DNA of 34,326 nt from Candidatus Gastranaerophilales bacterium (GTDB taxonomy: Bacteria > Cyanobacteriota > Vampirovibrionia > Gastranaerophilales > Gastranaerophilaceae), in assembly GCA_944323535.1 (NCBI GenBank), contig CALUSW010000014.1:1-34326 (forward strand), given 5' to 3'. Below, one piece after another: positions 1,250 through 27,766 of this stretch; within the stretch, counting starts at the first letter, position 1, and each line of letters opens with the position of its first letter. A program made the position numbers and the translations under genes. The notes under the pieces were generated by a model. It saw only the letters and a list, made by a program, of their open reading frames with translations. It searched no databases and had not been told where the DNA came from.

Positions 1250-2347
1250 TTAAATTCTATCACTGTATGGCAAAGAATTAATGTAATCTTCCATAAATTG
1301 CCAATCAGGAATATAACCCTTTTCAGAATAGGTATAATTATCATCTATAATTGGATTTCCGTTATTGTCTCGTTGGATGGGAAGTCTTAAAATTAAATTC
1401 GGTAGTGTTTTATTAGCTTGTCTTCCATATGAGTATCTGTATTGATTTGAAAACAACACGGTACTTATAAACATTTTAACTTTAATGCTGATATCTTCTT
1501 TTGATATTAGCAAATAAAGGTCTCTACCGCTGTAAAACGGTCTTTTTTGTACGAAAGTTGATAGTACACTACCACCGCCAGCAACAGTTATCGTTTCTGC
1601 GGGTTGAGGTTCTCTCCCTTCAATCTTCTTTACATATGCAGATATGCCATTATTGTCTGCTGTTCTTGCAACAAAAGCAATCCCTTCAGGGTCATCAGAA
1701 GTGGTTTCTATGCATGTATTTAACTCCAAATTGATACCATATTTGACTTCAAACAGACTAGAAACAGTAAATTCTTCCCATTTATCTATTTCCAATTCTT
1801 TTGCATGACCTGATTTAACTTTGGTTGTAATAGGTTTGTGGTGTAATGACTTTATGTAATCTTCCATAAACTGCCAGTCTGGGATATAACCTTCATCAGA
1901 ATAAGTCCTGTTTTCATCTATAGTAGGTGTATTATCTTCATTGTGTTTAATAGGTAGTTTTACAATAATTTCTTTAGAGTCGCCTACACGACACTGCCTA
2001 CCATAAGACCATTTACCATTTTCATTGAATGTGATAATTGAAGTTAGAAACAGTCCTACATTTTGTGTCATTTTATATTTAGGTGCGAATATATTTGCAT
2101 CGCTTGTAGCACTAAAAGGTTTCCCTTGATAGAATGCTTTACATTCAACTTTGCCAGTTACAATTTTATTCTCACTAAAGTCAGGTGGTAAATCTATCAT
2201 CTGCCCAACACCATTATTTGTTGCAGAAGCTGACACATAAGGTGTTGTACCATATTCATAGTCATCAGAACTGTAATAGTTCCCAGCACATATATCAAAT
2301 AATCTTGTTACATTAAACTCTTTCCAGTCTTGTACATTTAATTCCAT
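1250..2347 (-). CDS. Restriction-modification specificity subunit (BcgI B-like / HsdS)
   Basis: A 365-aa two-domain specificity subunit that should set the DNA target of the adjacent nuclease-methyltransferase. It has two similar halves, each beginning with a W-x-E-F-x-V-x-x-L-F segment (residues about 8-17 and 190-199) and ending in the conserved stretch GYIPDWQFMEDYI. Each half contains a target-recognition domain. The length is close to the roughly 340 aa of the BcgI B subunit. The start ATG at 2347 is two bases after the stop of the upstream gene, and its ribosome-binding site (AGGGG) lies inside that gene's end, so the two are translationally linked. The near-identical half-ends could allow exchange of recognition domains by recombination. 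Confidence 0.85.
   Translation of the reverse strand: MELNVQDWKEFNVTRLFDICAGNYYSSDDYEYGTTPYVSASATNNGVGQMIDLPPDFSENKIVTGKVECKAFYQGKPFSATSDANIFAPKYKMTQNVGLFLTSIITFNENGKWSYGRQCRVGDSKEIIVKLPIKHNEDNTPTIDENRTYSDEGYIPDWQFMEDYIKSLHHKPITTKVKSGHAKELEIDKWEEFTVSSLFEVKYGINLELNTCIETTSDDPEGIAFVARTADNNGISAYVKKIEGREPQPAETITVAGGGSVLSTFVQKRPFYSGRDLYLLISKEDISIKVKMFISTVLFSNQYRYSYGRQANKTLPNLILRLPIQRDNNGNPIIDDNYTYSEKGYIPDWQFMEDYINSLPYSDRI
1282..1352 (-). repeat. Intragenic repeat in the specificity gene (partner at 1855-1925)
   Basis: The segment coding for the end of the second half of the specificity subunit is repeated, with scattered mismatches, at 1855-1925, exactly 573 bases (191 codons) away. Both copies encode the Y-I-P-D-W-Q-F-M-E-D-Y-I block. 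It marks the duplicated two-TRD architecture. Confidence 0.7.
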
Positions 2348-2349
2348 CG

Positions 2350-4305
2350 TTATCCCCTGTTATCATCTTCATATACATTACCTTCTTTTACAAGGTAGGA
2401 TAAGTAGTTATTAAGTGTACGTTGAAAATCATCTGCTGTTAATTTGGTATAATCTGTTTTCATATACGCTTCACATAACCATTCATCATCAGCAGTAACT
2501 CTTTCTACAGCTGATTTCCCATCGACTACAGCTTTTTCTTCATATAATTTCAACCATTCTTCTTCAATACTTTTCCACTTAGAAATTGTGAAGTTTCCTT
2601 TCTCATCTTTAATAAACTGTTCAACACGTCCTAAGTTCTTTTTCTTAACAAATCCATCATCTTTACAGTAACCAAAAAATGTGCTTCTTGTTGTACCGTC
2701 AGGCTTTATATGAGGTTGTCCCAGTGTAAATAGCATACAACAAGCACAAACAGAAGAACCGGGATAGAATATTTCAGCAGGTAGAGAAAATACGGCTTCC
2801 AGAGTATTATTTTTAAGCAACACTTCTTTTTCTTTAGTAATAAGACTGCCTGTTCCTATAGCACATGCAAGAGGCAATAAAACCGCTAACTTTACAGGTT
2901 TAGGTTGGTCACCATTTTTAATTTTTTCATCATTGAGTTCTTTAATGACATCGGAAAAGTAGTGGACAAAAACCAGTCCTTTTGTTGGGTCTTCTTTACC
3001 ATCTTTTGCTTTACCCCAATCATTTTTATAGGAATTCGGTATGCTTCTGGGTTTTGCGTTATAAGGCGGATTCATTAAAATGATATTCGGGTCCGCTTCT
3101 TTTATAAACTGTTTATAGTCAAAGCAACTACCGAGTTTGATATTAGAATTCCCGTCACCATGAATCAACATATTAGTGACCGACAAACCAAACGCTTTTT
3201 CTTCAATTTCAATACCATATATATTATTCTCTTTAACATTTTGTTGAAGTTTTTGAATTTCATTAGTTGAAAGATTTGGTTTCTTACAGTCTGCTAATTC
3301 TTTAACCATAGCCTGCACTAGGAAAGATGCACTGCCGCATGTCCCATCCAAAACAACTTTATTACAGTCTACTTCTGTTAATCTACACATAAATTCTGTG
3401 ATATGGTCTGGTGTAAAGGCTTGGTTCTTATCAGCTTTGCCAGTGTACTTATTGAAGGCAATAAAGAACAAGTTTAAAATATCCTGCCCTTCTGAACTGT
3501 TAGTATCTATATATTTATAGATATCCATAAGGATAGTATCTATAATTTCAATCCAATCTTCTTGTTTAAGAGCTTTTACTTTCTGATTCTCTAATACATT
3601 CTTTTGCAGTAATTCAATCTTTTTACTCTTGTTATCGGAGCCATCTAATAATTCTGTTAATGTACCTTTTATGCCGGCAATAATTTGGGTTGCAGACATT
3701 AATTTTAAAGCTTTATTAACTTGTTGTTTTGTTTCTTCATTAATTTCTGTTATTTCTAGTTTTTTGAGTAAATCTTTAATATGAAGTAATACTGTACCGA
3801 CAAACTGACTTCTAAGAACTTCAGCAATATCTTTCTTGTGTAATAATTCATTTAAGGCATAGGTATTCTTTAAAACCCGTTCTCTATCATTCTGTCTATT
3901 AAAGAAGAACAATGATTTATAATATTCCATTGTTCCTAAAACAGTTTCTTCTTTAAGAAAATTATCGGCATCAATGAATGATTTCCATACTCTTATCTTG
4001 TCATTTTTAGTATTCGCAAGAATACAGATAACTTTCTTCCCTGGATGCAATGCTCTTTCTTCTTCAAGGTACTCTGCCAGTTGTTCAACATCAGAATCAA
4101 CAAAGTTCTGTTTCGTTTCAATCAATATGACAAAGTCATCATCTTCAAGTCTTATATCTAATTTAAAGTGGTTAAAGCAATGTCCAAGAGCTTTTTCCAA
4201 CTTTGCTTTAGAACCAGCTTCAACTACATAACTATATTCTCCACCCTCTATATTGGTCGTAAGATATTTACTACCAATTCTCTCTATCATATCGTGTCTG
4301 TTCAC
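2350..4305 (-). CDS. Fused restriction nuclease / N6-adenine methyltransferase (BcgI A-like)
   Basis: With the chosen start this is a 651-aa polypeptide combining restriction and modification. Near the N-terminus a D...E-x-K pattern (D50, E63, K65, in the strand FVILIETK) looks like a PD-(D/E)xK nuclease site. A helical region follows, then a gamma-type N6-adenine methyltransferase: SAM-binding motif DGTCGSASFL from residue 320 and catalytic NPPY at 412-415. One chain with nuclease and methylase plus a separate specificity subunit is the layout of BcgI-type (type IIB) systems; BcgI A is about 640 aa. GTG at 4305 is preferred because AGGAGA lies 8 bases upstream. A TTG at 4338 in the same frame would add 11 residues but has no comparable site. 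No separate HsdR or helicase gene is present. Confidence 0.8.
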   Translation of the reverse strand: MNRHDMIERIGSKYLTTNIEGGEYSYVVEAGSKAKLEKALGHCFNHFKLDIRLEDDDFVILIETKQNFVDSDVEQLAEYLEEERALHPGKKVICILANTKNDKIRVWKSFIDADNFLKEETVLGTMEYYKSLFFFNRQNDRERVLKNTYALNELLHKKDIAEVLRSQFVGTVLLHIKDLLKKLEITEINEETKQQVNKALKLMSATQIIAGIKGTLTELLDGSDNKSKKIELLQKNVLENQKVKALKQEDWIEIIDTILMDIYKYIDTNSSEGQDILNLFFIAFNKYTGKADKNQAFTPDHITEFMCRLTEVDCNKVVLDGTCGSASFLVQAMVKELADCKKPNLSTNEIQKLQQNVKENNIYGIEIEEKAFGLSVTNMLIHGDGNSNIKLGSCFDYKQFIKEADPNIILMNPPYNAKPRSIPNSYKNDWGKAKDGKEDPTKGLVFVHYFSDVIKELNDEKIKNGDQPKPVKLAVLLPLACAIGTGSLITKEKEVLLKNNTLEAVFSLPAEIFYPGSSVCACCMLFTLGQPHIKPDGTTRSTFFGYCKDDGFVKKKNLGRVEQFIKDEKGNFTISKWKSIEEEWLKLYEEKAVVDGKSAVERVTADDEWLCEAYMKTDYTKLTADDFQRTLNNYLSYLVKEGNVYEDDNRG

Positions 4306-4360
4306 AATAATACTCTCCTGCAATGTAAATTGTAGCAAGGGAAACAGTTATGGTCTATAT

Positions 4361-9665: not shown

Positions 9666-10238
9666 TTACATTTTTCCGGCGGAAACTTGCAGAGAATTTT
9701 CAATCAGTTCATTTTCAAATTCAAAGCTGTCTTCAGCAGGGGTATCAACTTTACCGTCATAATGAACTCTGATTTGAAGACCAAGACCATCCTTGCCTCT
9801 TTTAGCTGCAATAGTTCTCAATTCATTTGTACCAAGTCCGCGGTCAACATAAATAGTTCTGGTATCATCAACGAACTTGCCTTCAAGTCCCCAATATCTT
9901 ACACCATCAGTTGTAATGAAGTTTGGAGATTCATAAGAAGAAACGCTTTCACAATCAACACGTCCGGCTGTATTCAAAGCATCGGCAACAGCTTCACAAA
10001 ACGCGGAATCGGAAATATTTTCGTCTTTCCAATAAGCCGAGGAATTTGCGGCCATAGAATATACCGTAGAATCCATAGCATTTGAAACAGCACTTTGCAT
10101 ACTATACAAAGCCTTCTTATAAGTAATTTTGTCTTTATCCGGTCTTACATTATCGATTACCGGGATTAAGATTGCAGCCAGAACCCCTATAATTGCTAAT
10201 GTGACCAGTGCTTCCGAAAGAGTAAATGCTTTTTTCAT
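9666..10238 (-). CDS. Prepilin-like protein (type IV pilin / pseudopilin)
   Basis: A 190-aa protein starting with a type IV prepilin signal: a short basic leader MKKA, then F-T-L-S-E with the conserved glutamate at mature position 5, then a hydrophobic helix (residues about 9-27). The residue before the cleavage point is alanine where glycine is usual; prepilin peptidases can accept this. The remainder is a soluble domain with two cysteines (in DSAFCEA and RVDCES) that could form a disulfide. The ribosome-binding site AAGGA precedes the ATG. It stands alone behind its own promoter, so it may be one of a family of secreted pilin-like proteins, not the main pilin. Confidence 0.8.
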   Translation of the reverse strand: MKKAFTLSEALVTLAIIGVLAAILIPVIDNVRPDKDKITYKKALYSMQSAVSNAMDSTVYSMAANSSAYWKDENISDSAFCEAVADALNTAGRVDCESVSSYESPNFITTDGVRYWGLEGKFVDDTRTIYVDRGLGTNELRTIAAKRGKDGLGLQIRVHYDGKVDTPAEDSFEFENELIENSLQVSAGKM

Positions 10239-18408: not shown

Positions 18409-19998
18409 TTGGCGGATACCGAAAAGAAAAGTACATACAATGAATTAGTTGAAGAAGGCCAGTCATTTTATGATAAAGGAGAGTATAAAGAAGCCGTAAA
18501 ATGCTATAAAACGGCGTTAATAATGTCTAAGAACATTAACAGCATTACTCTTGCAGGATTATATGTAAGACTTGCAAACGCATATTATAAACTGGAAGAC
18601 AAAGATAAATCGACATATTATTATGAACAATATCTGAAAGAATATCCGCAAGGACAGCTAAGTGTATTTTCAAGACTTGCGCATGCTTATTATTATATTG
18701 ATACGGATAAAAGTATTGATTATCATAATAAAGCATTAAATATGGAGGTGAATAAATACGATTCTGCCTGTAAGCTTTTTGCCATGACAAAATCTTCATA
18801 CTACGACCAGCAGGATATTAAAGAAGAATCGGAATATGAAGTTGAACAGCTCAGAAATACCATATTTAAAAATATAAAAAAATATAACCACGAAAATAAA
18901 AAACAAAAGAGAAACGGCAAATTAAATATTGCATATCTTTCATCGGACTGCCATGCCCATACTATGATGAACTATATTCTTCCTATATGGGAAAACCATA
19001 ATAAAGAGGAATTTAATTTTTTTATTTTTAACGGCTCCGAAAAAAATGATACTACGACAGAGAAAATAATTAAAACAGGTTTTGAAATAATACCATGTTC
19101 TAAAATGACGGATGAGCAGCTGGCAAAAGCAATATATGAAAAAGATATAGATATATTAATTGATCTTGGCGGATATACTCATCTTAAATCATATGCAGCT
19201 TTATATAAGCCCGCACCTGTCATAATTTCATATCTCGGCTATCTGAATACACTCGGAATAAAAGAGGTGGATTATATACTTGCGGATAGATTTACGATTC
19301 CGGAGGATAAAGCATATTTATATACTGAAAAACCTTTATATTTAGATAAAGGATACCAGATTTTTTCAGAAAAAAATCTTCCGGATACGGAAGAATCTCC
19401 GTATAAAAAGAACAATTATATTACATTCGGAAGTTTTAATTGTACATCTAAGTTTAATGATACGACTATTTATATGTGGTCAAAAATATTAAAAAATGTT
19501 CCTGATTCAAAGCTGTTAATATATAGAACCCAGCTTACAAAAAACATTATTAAGAATTTAAAGAATAAATTTGAAAAAAGAGGAATAGAATTAGAAAGAA
19601 TTATTTTTACGTCAAGAAAATATACTCCTCATTTTAAAGCATATTCACTAGCTGATATATCACTTGACCCTTATCCCTTCAGCGGTATGTCAATAGCGAT
19701 AGAAACAGCTTTAATGGGTGTTCCTACGGTTACTTTAATCGGAGACGGCATGCAGTCAAGAGGAGCGGGAAGAATTAATCATATTATAGGTCTTGATGAA
19801 CTTAATGCCGCATGCGGTGATGAATATATAAAAATAGCTGTTGATTTATCTTCTAATAAAGAAAAACTGGATGATTTAAAAAATACGTTAAGGAATAAAA
19901 TAAATAATTCCGAATTAAGACAAAATGCTAAAGATTTTACAATGGATTTGGAAAATAAATATAAAAAGGTATGGGAAGAATTTATAAATAGTCCTTAA
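18409..19998 (+). CDS. TPR protein with GT41 (SPINDLY/OGT-like) glycosyltransferase domain
   Basis: A 529-aa protein with tetratricopeptide-type helical repeats (residues about 8-130, for example GEYKEAVKCYKTAL) and a C-terminal GT41 domain (about 165-525). Characteristic pieces are IAYLSSDCHAHTMMNYIL, IDLGGYTHLKSYAALYKPAP, ISYLGYLNTLGIKEVDY, TFGSFNCTSKFNDTT and DPYPFSGMSIAIETALMGVP. Relatives transfer GlcNAc or another sugar from a nucleotide sugar to Ser/Thr of proteins; the substrate here is unknown. The start is TTG at 18409 with GGGAG seven bases upstream. It follows gpsA by 14 bases. Its last 17 bases overlap the convergent YkgJ-like gene. Confidence 0.85.
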   Translation: MADTEKKSTYNELVEEGQSFYDKGEYKEAVKCYKTALIMSKNINSITLAGLYVRLANAYYKLEDKDKSTYYYEQYLKEYPQGQLSVFSRLAHAYYYIDTDKSIDYHNKALNMEVNKYDSACKLFAMTKSSYYDQQDIKEESEYEVEQLRNTIFKNIKKYNHENKKQKRNGKLNIAYLSSDCHAHTMMNYILPIWENHNKEEFNFFIFNGSEKNDTTTEKIIKTGFEIIPCSKMTDEQLAKAIYEKDIDILIDLGGYTHLKSYAALYKPAPVIISYLGYLNTLGIKEVDYILADRFTIPEDKAYLYTEKPLYLDKGYQIFSEKNLPDTEESPYKKNNYITFGSFNCTSKFNDTTIYMWSKILKNVPDSKLLIYRTQLTKNIIKNLKNKFEKRGIELERIIFTSRKYTPHFKAYSLADISLDPYPFSGMSIAIETALMGVPTVTLIGDGMQSRGAGRINHIIGLDELNAACGDEYIKIAVDLSSNKEKLDDLKNTLRNKINNSELRQNAKDFTMDLENKYKKVWEEFINSP

Positions 19999-23566: not shown

Positions 23567-24250
23567 ATGGAAAACAAATCAAGATTAAATCAGCCTCATA
23601 ATCTGCCGGGAACACTGGTATGCGTTGAAGGCATAGACGGTTCCGGCAAGTCTACCCAGCTTATTATATTAAGAGACTGGCTTAAATCAAGAAAACAGGA
23701 CGTAATTTTTACGGAATGGAATTCGTCAGATTTAATCTCACAGACAACAAAACTTGCCAAGAAAAAAAATTTATTAAGTCCCAGAACTTTTTCTCTTTTA
23801 CATGCGGTAGATTTTGCGGATAGATTGGAGCAGGTAATTATTCCCGCATTAAAGGCAGGATTTATTGTTCTTGCCGACAGATATGTTTATACTGCTTTTG
23901 CCCGTGATGTCGCGCGAGGAGTTGACAGAAATTGGGTAAGAAAAGTTTACGGATTTGCAGTAAGACCTGATTTAACTTTATATTTCAGGGTAGATGAAGA
24001 TGTATCGCTTGAAAGAATATGTTCTAATCGTTCACCAAAATTTTATGAAGCCGGTATGGATTTAAAATTAAGCAATGATCCTTATGAAAGCTACAGAATT
24101 TTCCAGAAAAGAGTTAATAATGAATACCGGAAGATGATTGAAGAATATAATCTTGTTGAGATAGATGCTAATGAAAGCATACATAAAAAACAATTATTTT
24201 TCAGAGAAAAGGTAGAGCAAATTCTTGCACAAAAAGGAATAACTGTATAA
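23567..24250 (+). CDS. Thymidylate kinase-like protein, first of tandem pair
   Basis: A 227-aa P-loop kinase of the dTMP kinase family, which phosphorylates dTMP to dTDP. The Walker A loop is GIDGSGKST (22-30), and FADRLEQVIIPALKAG and ADRYVYTAFARD match family landmarks. It departs from canonical Tmk: the TREPGGT segment after the first strand is replaced by TEWNSSD, and the usual DRYxxSxxAYQ reads DRYVYTAFARD. Substrate specificity is therefore uncertain. The downstream gene is a paralogue overlapping by one base (TAATG), so the two are translationally coupled and may form a heterodimer. Confidence 0.75.
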   Translation: MENKSRLNQPHNLPGTLVCVEGIDGSGKSTQLIILRDWLKSRKQDVIFTEWNSSDLISQTTKLAKKKNLLSPRTFSLLHAVDFADRLEQVIIPALKAGFIVLADRYVYTAFARDVARGVDRNWVRKVYGFAVRPDLTLYFRVDEDVSLERICSNRSPKFYEAGMDLKLSNDPYESYRIFQKRVNNEYRKMIEEYNLVEIDANESIHKKQLFFREKVEQILAQKGITV

Positions 24251-24909
24251 TGGTTGAATATAAATCAAAACACGGATATGAAGGTTTATTAATTGTAATA
24301 GAAGGAACAGACGGTTCCGGAAAATCCACGCAAATTGAACGTTTAAAAAGGTGGATTGAAGATCAATCATACGGTGTTATGGTCAGTGAATGGAAAACTT
24401 CAAAATTTATTGCTGATGCAATTAATGATGCCAAGGAAAGAAATCTTTTAAATGCAACTACTTTTAGTTTGTTATATGCCGCTGATTTTGCAGACAGATT
24501 GGAAAATATTATTCTTCCGGCCTTAAAGGCAGGATTCGTTGTTATTCTGGACAGGTATATTTATACTGCTTATGCACGCGATGTTGTAAGGGGACATGAT
24601 ATTGAATGGCTCAAAAATCTTTATGAATATGCGCCTGAACCAGATATGGTATTTTATCTTGATGTTCCGGTTGAAATATTGTTAAAACGAATTATAGGAA
24701 CAACAGGTCTTGATTATTGGGAATCCGGCAGAGATATAGGTTTGAGCAGCGACTTTTATAAAAGTTTTCAAATTTATCAGGGCAAATGTCTTGACGAATA
24801 TAAGAAGATGATTGAAGAATACGGATTTATTTCTATTGACGGAACTTTGAGCGAAAAGGAAATTCATAAAAAAATAATTTCGCATGTGGAAAAAATATTG
24901 GATATTTAA
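24250..24909 (+). CDS. Thymidylate kinase-like protein, second of tandem pair
   Basis: A 219-aa paralogue of the preceding protein with the same architecture: Walker A GTDGSGKST (19-27), SEWKTSK in place of TREPGGT, FADRLENIILPALKAG, and LDRYIYTAYARD in the substrate region. Both copies keep the nucleotide-binding residues, so neither looks like a pseudoenzyme. It starts at the ATG overlapping the first gene's stop. The similarity along the whole length points to tandem duplication followed by divergence. Confidence 0.75.
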   Translation: MVEYKSKHGYEGLLIVIEGTDGSGKSTQIERLKRWIEDQSYGVMVSEWKTSKFIADAINDAKERNLLNATTFSLLYAADFADRLENIILPALKAGFVVILDRYIYTAYARDVVRGHDIEWLKNLYEYAPEPDMVFYLDVPVEILLKRIIGTTGLDYWESGRDIGLSSDFYKSFQIYQGKCLDEYKKMIEEYGFISIDGTLSEKEIHKKIISHVEKILDI

Positions 24910-24961: not shown

Positions 24962-25300
24962 ATGAAAAAATTAAATAATTCTGATTTTGAGCTTATTCAT
25001 AACATAATTCAAGAAATTGATTTTAATTATGATAGTGAAAAACAGAAAAACACACTTATTTTATCCGAATTATGGGAGAATACAACAGGTAAAAAAATTT
25101 CAAAACTAACTAAAGTTTTTGAAATTTCTGACGATAATGTAATTACCGTTTTATGTGCAGACTCTTTTACAGCAAATGAATTATATTTTTCAAAAGAAAA
25201 TTTACTTGAATTAATGAAAGAAAAAGCACAAAATCTGGGAATAAAAATAAAAGATATTAAGTTTAATTATAAGAAGTGGAAAGAAAAAAATGATGAATAA
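24962..25300 (+). CDS. DciA-like (DUF721) protein
   Basis: A 112-aa protein matching the DUF721/DciA pattern: ILSELWENTTGKKISKLTKV, then a short beta strand with ITVLCADSFTANELYF, and a C-terminal LGIKIKDIKFNY. DciA proteins load the replicative helicase DnaB in bacteria lacking DnaC or DnaI; applied here, that is a family inference. The promoter geometry suggests a leaderless transcript. The 3' end overlaps the start of the next gene by 11 bases. Confidence 0.65.
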   Translation: MKKLNNSDFELIHNIIQEIDFNYDSEKQKNTLILSELWENTTGKKISKLTKVFEISDDNVITVLCADSFTANELYFSKENLLELMKEKAQNLGIKIKDIKFNYKKWKEKNDE

Positions 25301-27458
25301 AAAACGAACAGGGTTTTCGCTTGCTGAATTATTAATTGCCTTGCTGGTAATTAGTATTGTTTTATCTGCAGCAATTCCGACTCTTACAAGAAAATCTGCA
25401 ACAAGTGAGCAAATATGGCGCTGGAGCAGTTCCAATAACAGTGCATATTTTGGTGTAGGAAGTAATCAGAGCGCAATAATCGGTGCCGATTCAATCCCTT
25501 TTTTAAATGATCAATCTATGACACTTGAGCATATTATTTTTGATGATGAAGTTAATGTAACAGACTTAAAATTCAGTAATTACGGGGATAAACTTGTATT
25601 ATTAAAAAAATCTATGAGTGATAATGCAAAATCTCATTTTGTAAACTCTCATATATCTTTTTATAATATGACAAATAGTGCTGATGCAACTACAAATGAT
25701 ATACATTATGCCGGAAGGATTGCATCGGATACTCATAATCTTGCTTTTGGTATCGGAGCACTTCAAAATCTTGATGAAATAACGGATACATTTGACGGAG
25801 ATAATACCGCTATAGGTCATTATACTTTAATGCGTAACAGCAGCGGAAGTTATAATACGGCAATCGGTGAAAAAGCTCTTTCATATAATGAAGCAGGCAG
25901 TCTTAATACGGCTCTGGGATTTAAAAGTTTATTCAGACTTGGCGGTACAACAGGAGAAGATACTATTACTGCCAGTAATAATACTGCAATCGGTTCAGGG
26001 GCAATGCAATACAGTATAGCCGGTACTCAAAATACCGCAGTAGGTTCAGACAGTTTAGCAAAAAATCTTGCCGGCAGCGATAATACTGCAATCGGTTATT
26101 ATGCATTAAATATGGCTGATGAAGGTACCGGCAATACTGCCATTGGTGCAAATTCATGCGCTTTAATGACCGGCGGAGATTATAATATCTGTATAGGAAA
26201 CAGAGCCGGTGTAACAATGAACAGCGAGACAAATTACGGTCTTTTTATAGGAAGCGGTCAGGATGGTGACAATGATACTCCTCTAATCAGCGGTTTTACA
26301 CAGCCTTACGATACTAATGATAAAGAATTATCGGTTAATACAAGAATATTTGCCGTAAAAACCTTTGATTCAGGCTCTGATGCTTTCTATGTAGAGGCTA
26401 ATAAAGGAACTTCGGGATATGAAGCTACAGGACCGGCTGATAACGTAATAACTATGGCTCTTTATAATATAGGTGGTTTGCTTAAAGATGGCGCAATGTA
26501 CACCGGTTTAAGATTTAGCGGCGACCCTACCGATATAAATATTATTACTACAAGAACTGCAAGTGTGGCTGACAGCAGTAATAATAATGGTAATATAAAT
26601 TTTAATGACGGACAGCTTAAATTTGATTTAAGTAAAGATGATAAAGTTAATATTTATACTGATAAAGAAGAAATTAAAGAACTTCAGTTAAACGGTAAAC
26701 TTTCCGTAGAAAACAATAGTTCCGTTAATATGTCGCTAAGTGAAGATTATGGTTTTCAGGTGATTTCTTCAGATTCAACCGGGGCACAATTAGCTATGAA
26801 TGATGAAACTATGTATATTAATTTACCGGGAACATTTAGTCTGGATTCAGAAACGCTTTCCATTAATGAATCGGGAGCAATAACTGTCAAAAACGGTTAT
26901 ATAAGTATGGGTGAAAATGCCGGTAACAGCGTTTATATAAGTAATGAAGATGTTTCAATTCCGGGTGTTACGGGAACTTATGTTTCTGCATCAGTACAGC
27001 AGAGTCTTATAAACCTTTCATCTGCAGTTGAACAAGCTATGTCGTCAGGCGGAGGCGGGGGCTTCTCTGATATAAGACTTAAAGATGTTACGGGTGACTG
27101 TACTATAGGGTTAGACGAAATCAATGCTTTAGAAGTTAAGAATTTTACTTTTAAAAATGACAAAGAAAAAACTCCGCATGTAGGTGTTATAGCCCAGCAG
27201 CTTCAAAAAGTATTCCCTAATTCCGTATTTGAAGATAAAAAAAGCGGATATTTGAAAATCAAAACGGAAGAAATCTTCTATGCCATGGTTAATTCTATTA
27301 AAGAATTATTTGCACAAATACAGGATTTAACAGCAAAAATAACCGGACTTGATAAAAGAATAACCGAACTTGAAAAGCAAAACCAATTACTTTTAGAACA
27401 AAATAAAGCATTTGAAAAGCGGCTTGAAAAATTAGAAAAACAAAATTCCGGCAAATAA
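25290..27458 (+). CDS. Prepilin-type protein with beta-roll repeats and peptidase S74 chaperone tail
   Basis: A 722-aa chimera. The N-terminus is a type IV prepilin signal: basic leader ending in G8, then F9-S-L-A-E13 and a hydrophobic helix. Residues about 170-310 hold repeats of the NTAIGxxAL type (seven or eight copies spaced about 18-30 residues), as in phage tail fibres and trimeric adhesin heads. The C-terminus is a peptidase S74 (intramolecular chaperone) domain starting at S593-D-I-R-L-K, with PHVGVIAQQLQKVFP and a long terminal coiled coil (about 660-718). In S74 proteins the chaperone trimerises the fibre and cuts itself off at this serine. The result would be a pilin-anchored trimeric fibre. 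It overlaps the DciA-like gene by 11 bases; GGA upstream supports the first of two ATGs. Confidence 0.85.
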   Translation: MMNKKRTGFSLAELLIALLVISIVLSAAIPTLTRKSATSEQIWRWSSSNNSAYFGVGSNQSAIIGADSIPFLNDQSMTLEHIIFDDEVNVTDLKFSNYGDKLVLLKKSMSDNAKSHFVNSHISFYNMTNSADATTNDIHYAGRIASDTHNLAFGIGALQNLDEITDTFDGDNTAIGHYTLMRNSSGSYNTAIGEKALSYNEAGSLNTALGFKSLFRLGGTTGEDTITASNNTAIGSGAMQYSIAGTQNTAVGSDSLAKNLAGSDNTAIGYYALNMADEGTGNTAIGANSCALMTGGDYNICIGNRAGVTMNSETNYGLFIGSGQDGDNDTPLISGFTQPYDTNDKELSVNTRIFAVKTFDSGSDAFYVEANKGTSGYEATGPADNVITMALYNIGGLLKDGAMYTGLRFSGDPTDINIITTRTASVADSSNNNGNINFNDGQLKFDLSKDDKVNIYTDKEEIKELQLNGKLSVENNSSVNMSLSEDYGFQVISSDSTGAQLAMNDETMYINLPGTFSLDSETLSINESGAITVKNGYISMGENAGNSVYISNEDVSIPGVTGTYVSASVQQSLINLSSAVEQAMSSGGGGGFSDIRLKDVTGDCTIGLDEINALEVKNFTFKNDKEKTPHVGVIAQQLQKVFPNSVFEDKKSGYLKIKTEEIFYAMVNSIKELFAQIQDLTAKITGLDKRITELEKQNQLLLEQNKAFEKRLEKLEKQNSGK

Positions 27459-27520: not shown

Positions 27521-27766
27521 ATGAGATTAGATAAGTTTTTAAAAGTATCAAGATTAATAAAAAGAAGAACTGTTGCCAACAAAGTTTCGGATCAGGGCAG
27601 AATATACGTAAATGATATTATTGCAAAACCCGCAAAACAGCTTAAAGAAGGGGATATAATTACAATTGTTCAAGCCGGTGCACAAATAAAAGTAAGAATA
27701 AAAAGAATCCCCTTAAACAATGTATCTGTCCAAGAGGCTTCCGGTTTGTATGAAATTATAAACTAA
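27521..27766 (+). CDS. S4-domain RNA-binding protein (RqcP/Hsp15-like)
   Basis: An 81-aa protein that is essentially one S4 RNA-binding domain: MRLDKFLKVSRLIKRRTVA, DQGRIYVND, AKPAKQLKEGD. It resembles the YabO/RqcP group, which binds stalled 50S subunits in ribosome quality control, and the Hsp15 group. No ribosome-binding site lies between the upstream terminator and the ATG. A TAATAT box ends seven bases before the ATG, which would give a leaderless message. The last four bases overlap the convergent ABC gene. Confidence 0.85.
   Translation: MRLDKFLKVSRLIKRRTVANKVSDQGRIYVNDIIAKPAKQLKEGDIITIVQAGAQIKVRIKRIPLNNVSVQEASGLYEIIN

Follow-up and report, generated by a model that had tools for sequence, protein, structure and literature searches.

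In Streptococcus sanguinis, the modular pilins PilB and PilC begin with a class III signal, to which vWA or lectin modules are attached as non-pilus effector domains, together with a pilin module. The combination of a prepilin signal (N_methyl) with a Peptidase_S74 domain (IPR012902-IPR030392) is one of the 15 most frequent modular pilin architectures; this class was counted only, and a peptidase function was suggested for it (Raynaud et al. 2021, PMC8179133). CofB of ETEC and TcpB of Vibrio cholerae are trimeric minor pilins located at pilus tips (PMC8179133, PMC5207764). The MAT fibres of Bdellovibrio bacteriovorus are trimeric, lie on the bacterial surface and end in an S74 domain with an SDxxxK motif, and self-cleavage has been shown for one of them, Bd3182 (PMC10769870). 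Phage endosialidase and tail-fibre chaperones (3gw6, 3gud, 4uw8) and the ICA domain of MYRF (7dc3) are released after trimer folding.

The gene described here (25290–27458, + strand, as are all its features; ATG start, 722 aa) lies in a window of 34,326 nucleotides, contig CALUSW010000014.1 of an uncultured Candidatus Gastranaerophilales bacterium from the gut, and encodes, in this order, a prepilin start, beta-roll repeats, a variable fibre and an S74 chaperone. Like PilB and PilC, the protein starts with a class III signal and continues into a non-pilus domain, but that domain is S74 in place of vWA or lectin modules, and Pfam recognises no pilin body. It resembles CofB and TcpB as a large minor pilin with a Glu at position 5, a likeness drawn here from the N-terminal signal only; those proteins also have a C-terminal beta-rich part and form a homotrimer at the tip, as proposed here, but they possess a clear pilin domain and have no S74 chaperone and no autocleavage. 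The MAT fibres differ in that a conserved ~130-aa beta-rich N-terminal domain follows a signal peptide, and they have no prepilin helix and no pilus anchor. The S74 fold, Ser/Lys motif and coiled coil are shared with the phage and MYRF domains, but phage chaperones ride on virions and MYRF ICA on a membrane transcription factor, neither of them on a pilin. We propose, with a probability of about 0.6, that the product is a modular minor pilin, three copies of which form a pilus tip that resembles a phage fibre and is processed at its two ends.

A preliminary description of this DNA had named a prepilin signal (G8/F9, E at +5), NTAIG beta-roll repeats, an S74 domain beginning at S593-D-I-R-L-K and a long coiled coil, and each of them is recovered here at the residues named. 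Specifically, the leader MMNKKRTG (residues 1–8; 25290–25313) ends at a predicted prepilin peptidase cut, G8|F9, and is followed by a hydrophobic α1-N helix of approximately residues 9–33 (25314–25388) with E13 at +5. All features of a class III signal are present: a short basic leader ending in G, a hydrophobic +1 residue, E at +5 and a hydrophobic helix. Pfam N_methyl matches residues 4–29 (E 2.9e-6; 27.1 bits against a curated cut-off of 21.2), and the NCBIfam prepilin signal model TIGR02532 scores 21.0 bits against a cut-off of 16.3. The helix also appears in a full-length AlphaFold model, which was built from three sequences, is of low confidence (pLDDT 34.5) and was left out of fold searches.

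The Glu at +5 helps pilins dock into filaments; a plain membrane anchor can do without it. The invariance of G8, F9 and E13 in 28 orthologues thus argues against the helix being a mere anchor or export signal for a trimeric, S74-matured adhesin that stays in the inner membrane or is set free, without ever entering a pilus. This alternative draws on the sequence after the helix, where Pfam recognises no pilin body in the 722-aa protein or in 15 scanned orthologues, and on the position of the gene, which is far from the pilus genes and inside a housekeeping cluster. Elsewhere in the order, though, S74-pilin genes occur in tandem, also with a non-S74 prepilin, in the manner of minor pilin operons, and we consider the anchor-only alternative rather unlikely. 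In TcpB, Glu5 is required for incorporation into the growing pilus and for retraction, not for initiation (PMC5207764). By analogy, the invariant E13 hints that the protein may truly be incorporated into a filament.

Residues 150–303 (25737–26198) contain NTA[IVL]G motifs at 172, 189, 206, 231, 248, 265 and 282, with a spacing of mostly 17 residues, and looser copies at 150 and 299. The region resembles phage tail-spike and tail-fibre families (PHROGs and phage records), and the low-confidence full-length model places short strands at the motifs. The repeat block is probably a beta-roll stalk. It is followed by a variable distal fibre, residues 331–592 (26280–27065).

The Peptidase_S74 intramolecular chaperone domain occupies residues 593–650 (27066–27239), with a Pfam match that starts at S593 itself (593–646; E 2.6e-13; 50.5 bits against a curated cut-off of 22). 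Its SDxxxK catalytic motif, S593-D-I-R-L-K598 (27066–27083), places the predicted autocleavage at F592|S593. S593, D594, R596 and K598 are invariant in the 28 orthologues, so the catalytic pair S593/K598, whose absence had earlier been considered, is in place; the Ser/Lys pair is likewise invariant in the tandem S74-pilin paralogues. A C-terminal coiled coil (residues 659–720; 27264–27449), seen in the structure models as one helix and conserved in sequence, has Leu or Phe every 7 residues from 673 to 715.

A PDB search with the single protein gave no match, and a profile of twelve S74 tails was needed; it matched the MYRF ICA domain (7dc3) with E 4.9e-15, as well as phage tail fibres. A model of residues 540–722, built from 39 sequences, is good from approximately residue 610 onward, with block pLDDT of 84–98. 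Foldseek against the PDB returned three chains of 7dc3 as the sole confident matches (E 2.3e-5), followed by 3gw6 (E 0.06). VIA-align superposed the model on 7dc3 (Z 7.5, 107 residues aligned, 2.9 Å), 3gw6 (Z 5.8, 99 aligned, 3.6 Å), 3gud (Z 5.8, 74 aligned, 2.7 Å) and 4uw8 (Z 4.7, 77 aligned, 2.9 Å); Z values of ~5–7.5 are middling if taken alone. Matches in BFVD were mainly phage fibre chaperones. Sequence and model support the assignment of an S74 fold with a C-terminal helix.

The gene has relatives across the sampled genus. A relative was found in 41 of the 41 genomes searched (E ≤ 1e-10; order Candidatus Gastranaerophilales), and both Pfam families, N_methyl and Peptidase_S74, were matched in all 15 orthologues scanned. 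Mean pairwise identity among the 28 orthologues is 81% for residues 1–35, 45% for 36–145 and 45% for the repeats (146–330); it falls to 26% for residues 331–470 and 18% for 471–592, approximate values because the alignment of this hypervariable part is uncertain, and returns to 76% for the S74 domain (593–650) and 70% for the coiled coil. The fastest-diverging part, 471–592, is thus immediately N-terminal of the predicted cut: identity falls toward residue 592 and jumps at 593. Many close pairs, too, differ more in the stretch before the cut than anywhere else in the fibre. Loci L009 and L023 are identical in the head (1.00) and nearly so in the repeats and middle (0.99 each), with 0.77 in the tip; for L010 and L026 the corresponding values are 0.94, 0.92, 0.86 and 0.50. 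L009 is closest to L023 in head, repeats and middle and closest to L013 in the tip, which suggests from sequence that its tip region recombined.

Constant ends with a divergent region before the predicted cut are the pattern to be expected if an exposed tip is made with the help of a chaperone that is then discarded. This pattern also bears on the function of the S74 domain. If the domain were a protease acting in the pilus system, as the database name implies, this would agree with the predicted peptidase activity described for the N_methyl–S74 architecture (Raynaud et al. 2021, PMC8179133). S74 domains in the literature, however, cut themselves and serve trimer folding (PMC10769870; the matched structures above), and a hypervariable stretch directly before the cut suits a product, not the scaffold of a protease. 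We regard a protease as very improbable here.

The gene sits in a one-strand housekeeping run, in which two tmk genes and a DciA-like gene (24962–25300, +) precede it and an S4-domain gene (27521–27766, +) follows it; both flanking genes, assigned by Pfam and synteny, are conserved neighbours outside the fibre, and the last 11 bases of the DciA-like gene are shared with the start of the pilin gene. Further neighbours include an ABC transporter and cell wall genes. The two adjacent thymidylate kinase paralogues (23567–24909) are kept across the genus, and the order tmk-tmk-dciA-[gene]-S4-ABC is common to the examined loci wherever contigs are long enough, except at L002, which has none of the tmk, dciA, S4 or ABC neighbours and may be a paralogue. 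About 5 kb upstream of the gene, at 18409–19998, is a protein with TPR and glycosyltransferase family 41 domains (O-GlcNAc transferase-like) that could modify surface proteins. By eye, the window also holds a type I restriction-modification-like pair of specificity and methylase genes (1250–4338, −), with a DUF3800-like gene beside it (390–1217).

There are no phage genes among the neighbours, and a prophage tail-fibre locus is ruled out, since the surroundings are housekeeping and not phage structural genes. The term 'phage-type' in the preliminary description is thus apt for the S74 domain family and does not hold for the origin of the locus. An assembly fusion, with two separate genes in relatives, had also been raised; the relatives have the one-gene architecture instead, genus-wide and in the same chromosomal place, which rules out both this and a chance joining. 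A related alternative, in which a captured phage tail-fibre gene was fused by chance to a prepilin start and has lost its function, would account for the phage-fibre-like repeats and S74 domain. It is already contradicted by the conservation, with a relative in all 41 genomes, a conserved locus and strong conservation at both ends, and the gene is single-copy in its own genome (the sole S74 match) in surroundings without phage genes; the chance of this alternative is close to nil.

The genome encodes a pilus machine. A secretin, an MshEN+T2SSE ATPase and a T2SSF platform protein are encoded in a row; elsewhere are a PilT-like ATPase and a prepilin peptidase (A24_N+A24), the enzyme that the earlier proposal of N-terminal processing calls for. 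The genome has five N_methyl matches, this gene included; another of the five, a prepilin-like protein of 190 aa with N_methyl above cut-off, also lies in the window (9666–10238, −). With a single secretin in the genome, this machine might itself be a type II secretion system, and the fibre could then belong to a short periplasmic endopilus that acts within the envelope, with no surface adhesin; large tip subunits, GspK among them, are believed to remain periplasmic (PMC5207764). The PilT-like retraction ATPase argues against this, and so does the distal end, whose fast divergence is easier to reconcile with contact with hosts, phages or competitors than with work in the periplasm. We judge an endopilus to be distinctly unlikely.

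Of the readings considered, a surface fibre that is trimeric and processed twice needs the fewest assumptions, and it is favoured by the divergence pattern; its trimeric state, cleavage and location are what we infer. Given the signal class, the prepilin helix would insert the protein into the inner membrane, with the remainder in the periplasm. As in other members of the S74 family, the S74 domain and coiled coil would gather three chains and template the beta-roll/beta-helix fibre. The S74 domain, in which the Ser/Lys pair is present, would then cut itself at F592|S593, which would yield a fibre of ~62 kDa and a chaperone of ~15 kDa. Residues 1–8 would be removed by the prepilin peptidase, for which enzyme and site are both present. 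The machine found in the genome (secretin, PilB, PilC and PilT) may take up the trimer, likeliest at the tip as for CofB and TcpB, and extrude it. The distal end bared by loss of the S74 domain would be the fast-evolving binding end.

The preliminary description had suggested a search for other proteins with N_methyl and S74 domains and their lineage, and the combination recurs in the order. S74 matches were found in 75 of 146 sampled genomes of the order and in 85 of the 291 genomes of a phylum sample (11 of the matching genomes are outside the order). A prepilin start is present in 33 of 40 S74 frames read; the others are truncated at the 5' end, apart from L262, which is outside the order. 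For the order itself, none of the 32 sampled S74 frames whose 5' end is complete lacks a prepilin start, and S74 thus appears from sequence to be a pilin tail throughout the order, as far as sampled. Among 181 viral S74 or repeat frames, some possibly cut at the 5' end, none has a prepilin start. Several genomes have 4 to 11 S74 genes. Such sets of S74-pilins with differing fibres (L048–L055 in genomes G032 and G008; also G111 and G205) look like an adhesin repertoire.

Exactly three S74-pilins occur at one place in genus g8 of the same family and in families f6 and f7 (L057, L060–L063, L232–L244). A fourth prepilin, which has no S74 domain, follows the set in f7 and at a single locus of f6 (L061); in f7 it is ~495 aa long (L062:8118–9605, L063:3619–5106). 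When S74 tails were placed in a tree, the three g8 positions formed three clades (supports 0.89, 0.98 and 0.97) apart from the f6/f7 group (support 0.95), and the three-gene number probably arose at least twice. We know of no heterotrimeric S74 fibre, which would be new and, if true, would parallel the GspI-J-K tip. Equal stalk lengths, taken as a sign of heterotrimers, are not seen in g8, where signal-to-S74 lengths within sets differ by up to ~170 residues, and heterotrimers are left as speculation; three separate homotrimers per set are equally possible. It is a tentative idea, and probably wrong as a whole, that S74 chaperones are an order-wide device for assembly and quality control of minor pilin tips, with homotrimers in the window's genus and heterotrimers in two lineages or more (g8; f6/f7).

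The preliminary description knew of no system of this design, which stands for characterised systems; the domain combination itself is not new, since Raynaud et al. 2021 (PMC8179133) already list it, and each half has its precedent. Literature searches for prepilin with endosialidase, and for prepilin with S74 and tail fiber, found no paper. What is new is the prediction of a disposable folding tail for a pilus tip, for which we found no test in the literature. The N_methyl–S74 class, listed yet unstudied, would be reinterpreted from 'peptidase' to 'disposable folding tail', with exact cut sites predicted.

Attachment of Gastranaerophilales has, to our knowledge, not been characterised, and the S74-pilin is probably an adhesion system of these gut bacteria. 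If the proposal is true, the cell builds the business end of a retractable pilus by means of a virus-style trimerising chaperone that removes itself, and a rapidly evolving binding tip is flanked by two constant ends.
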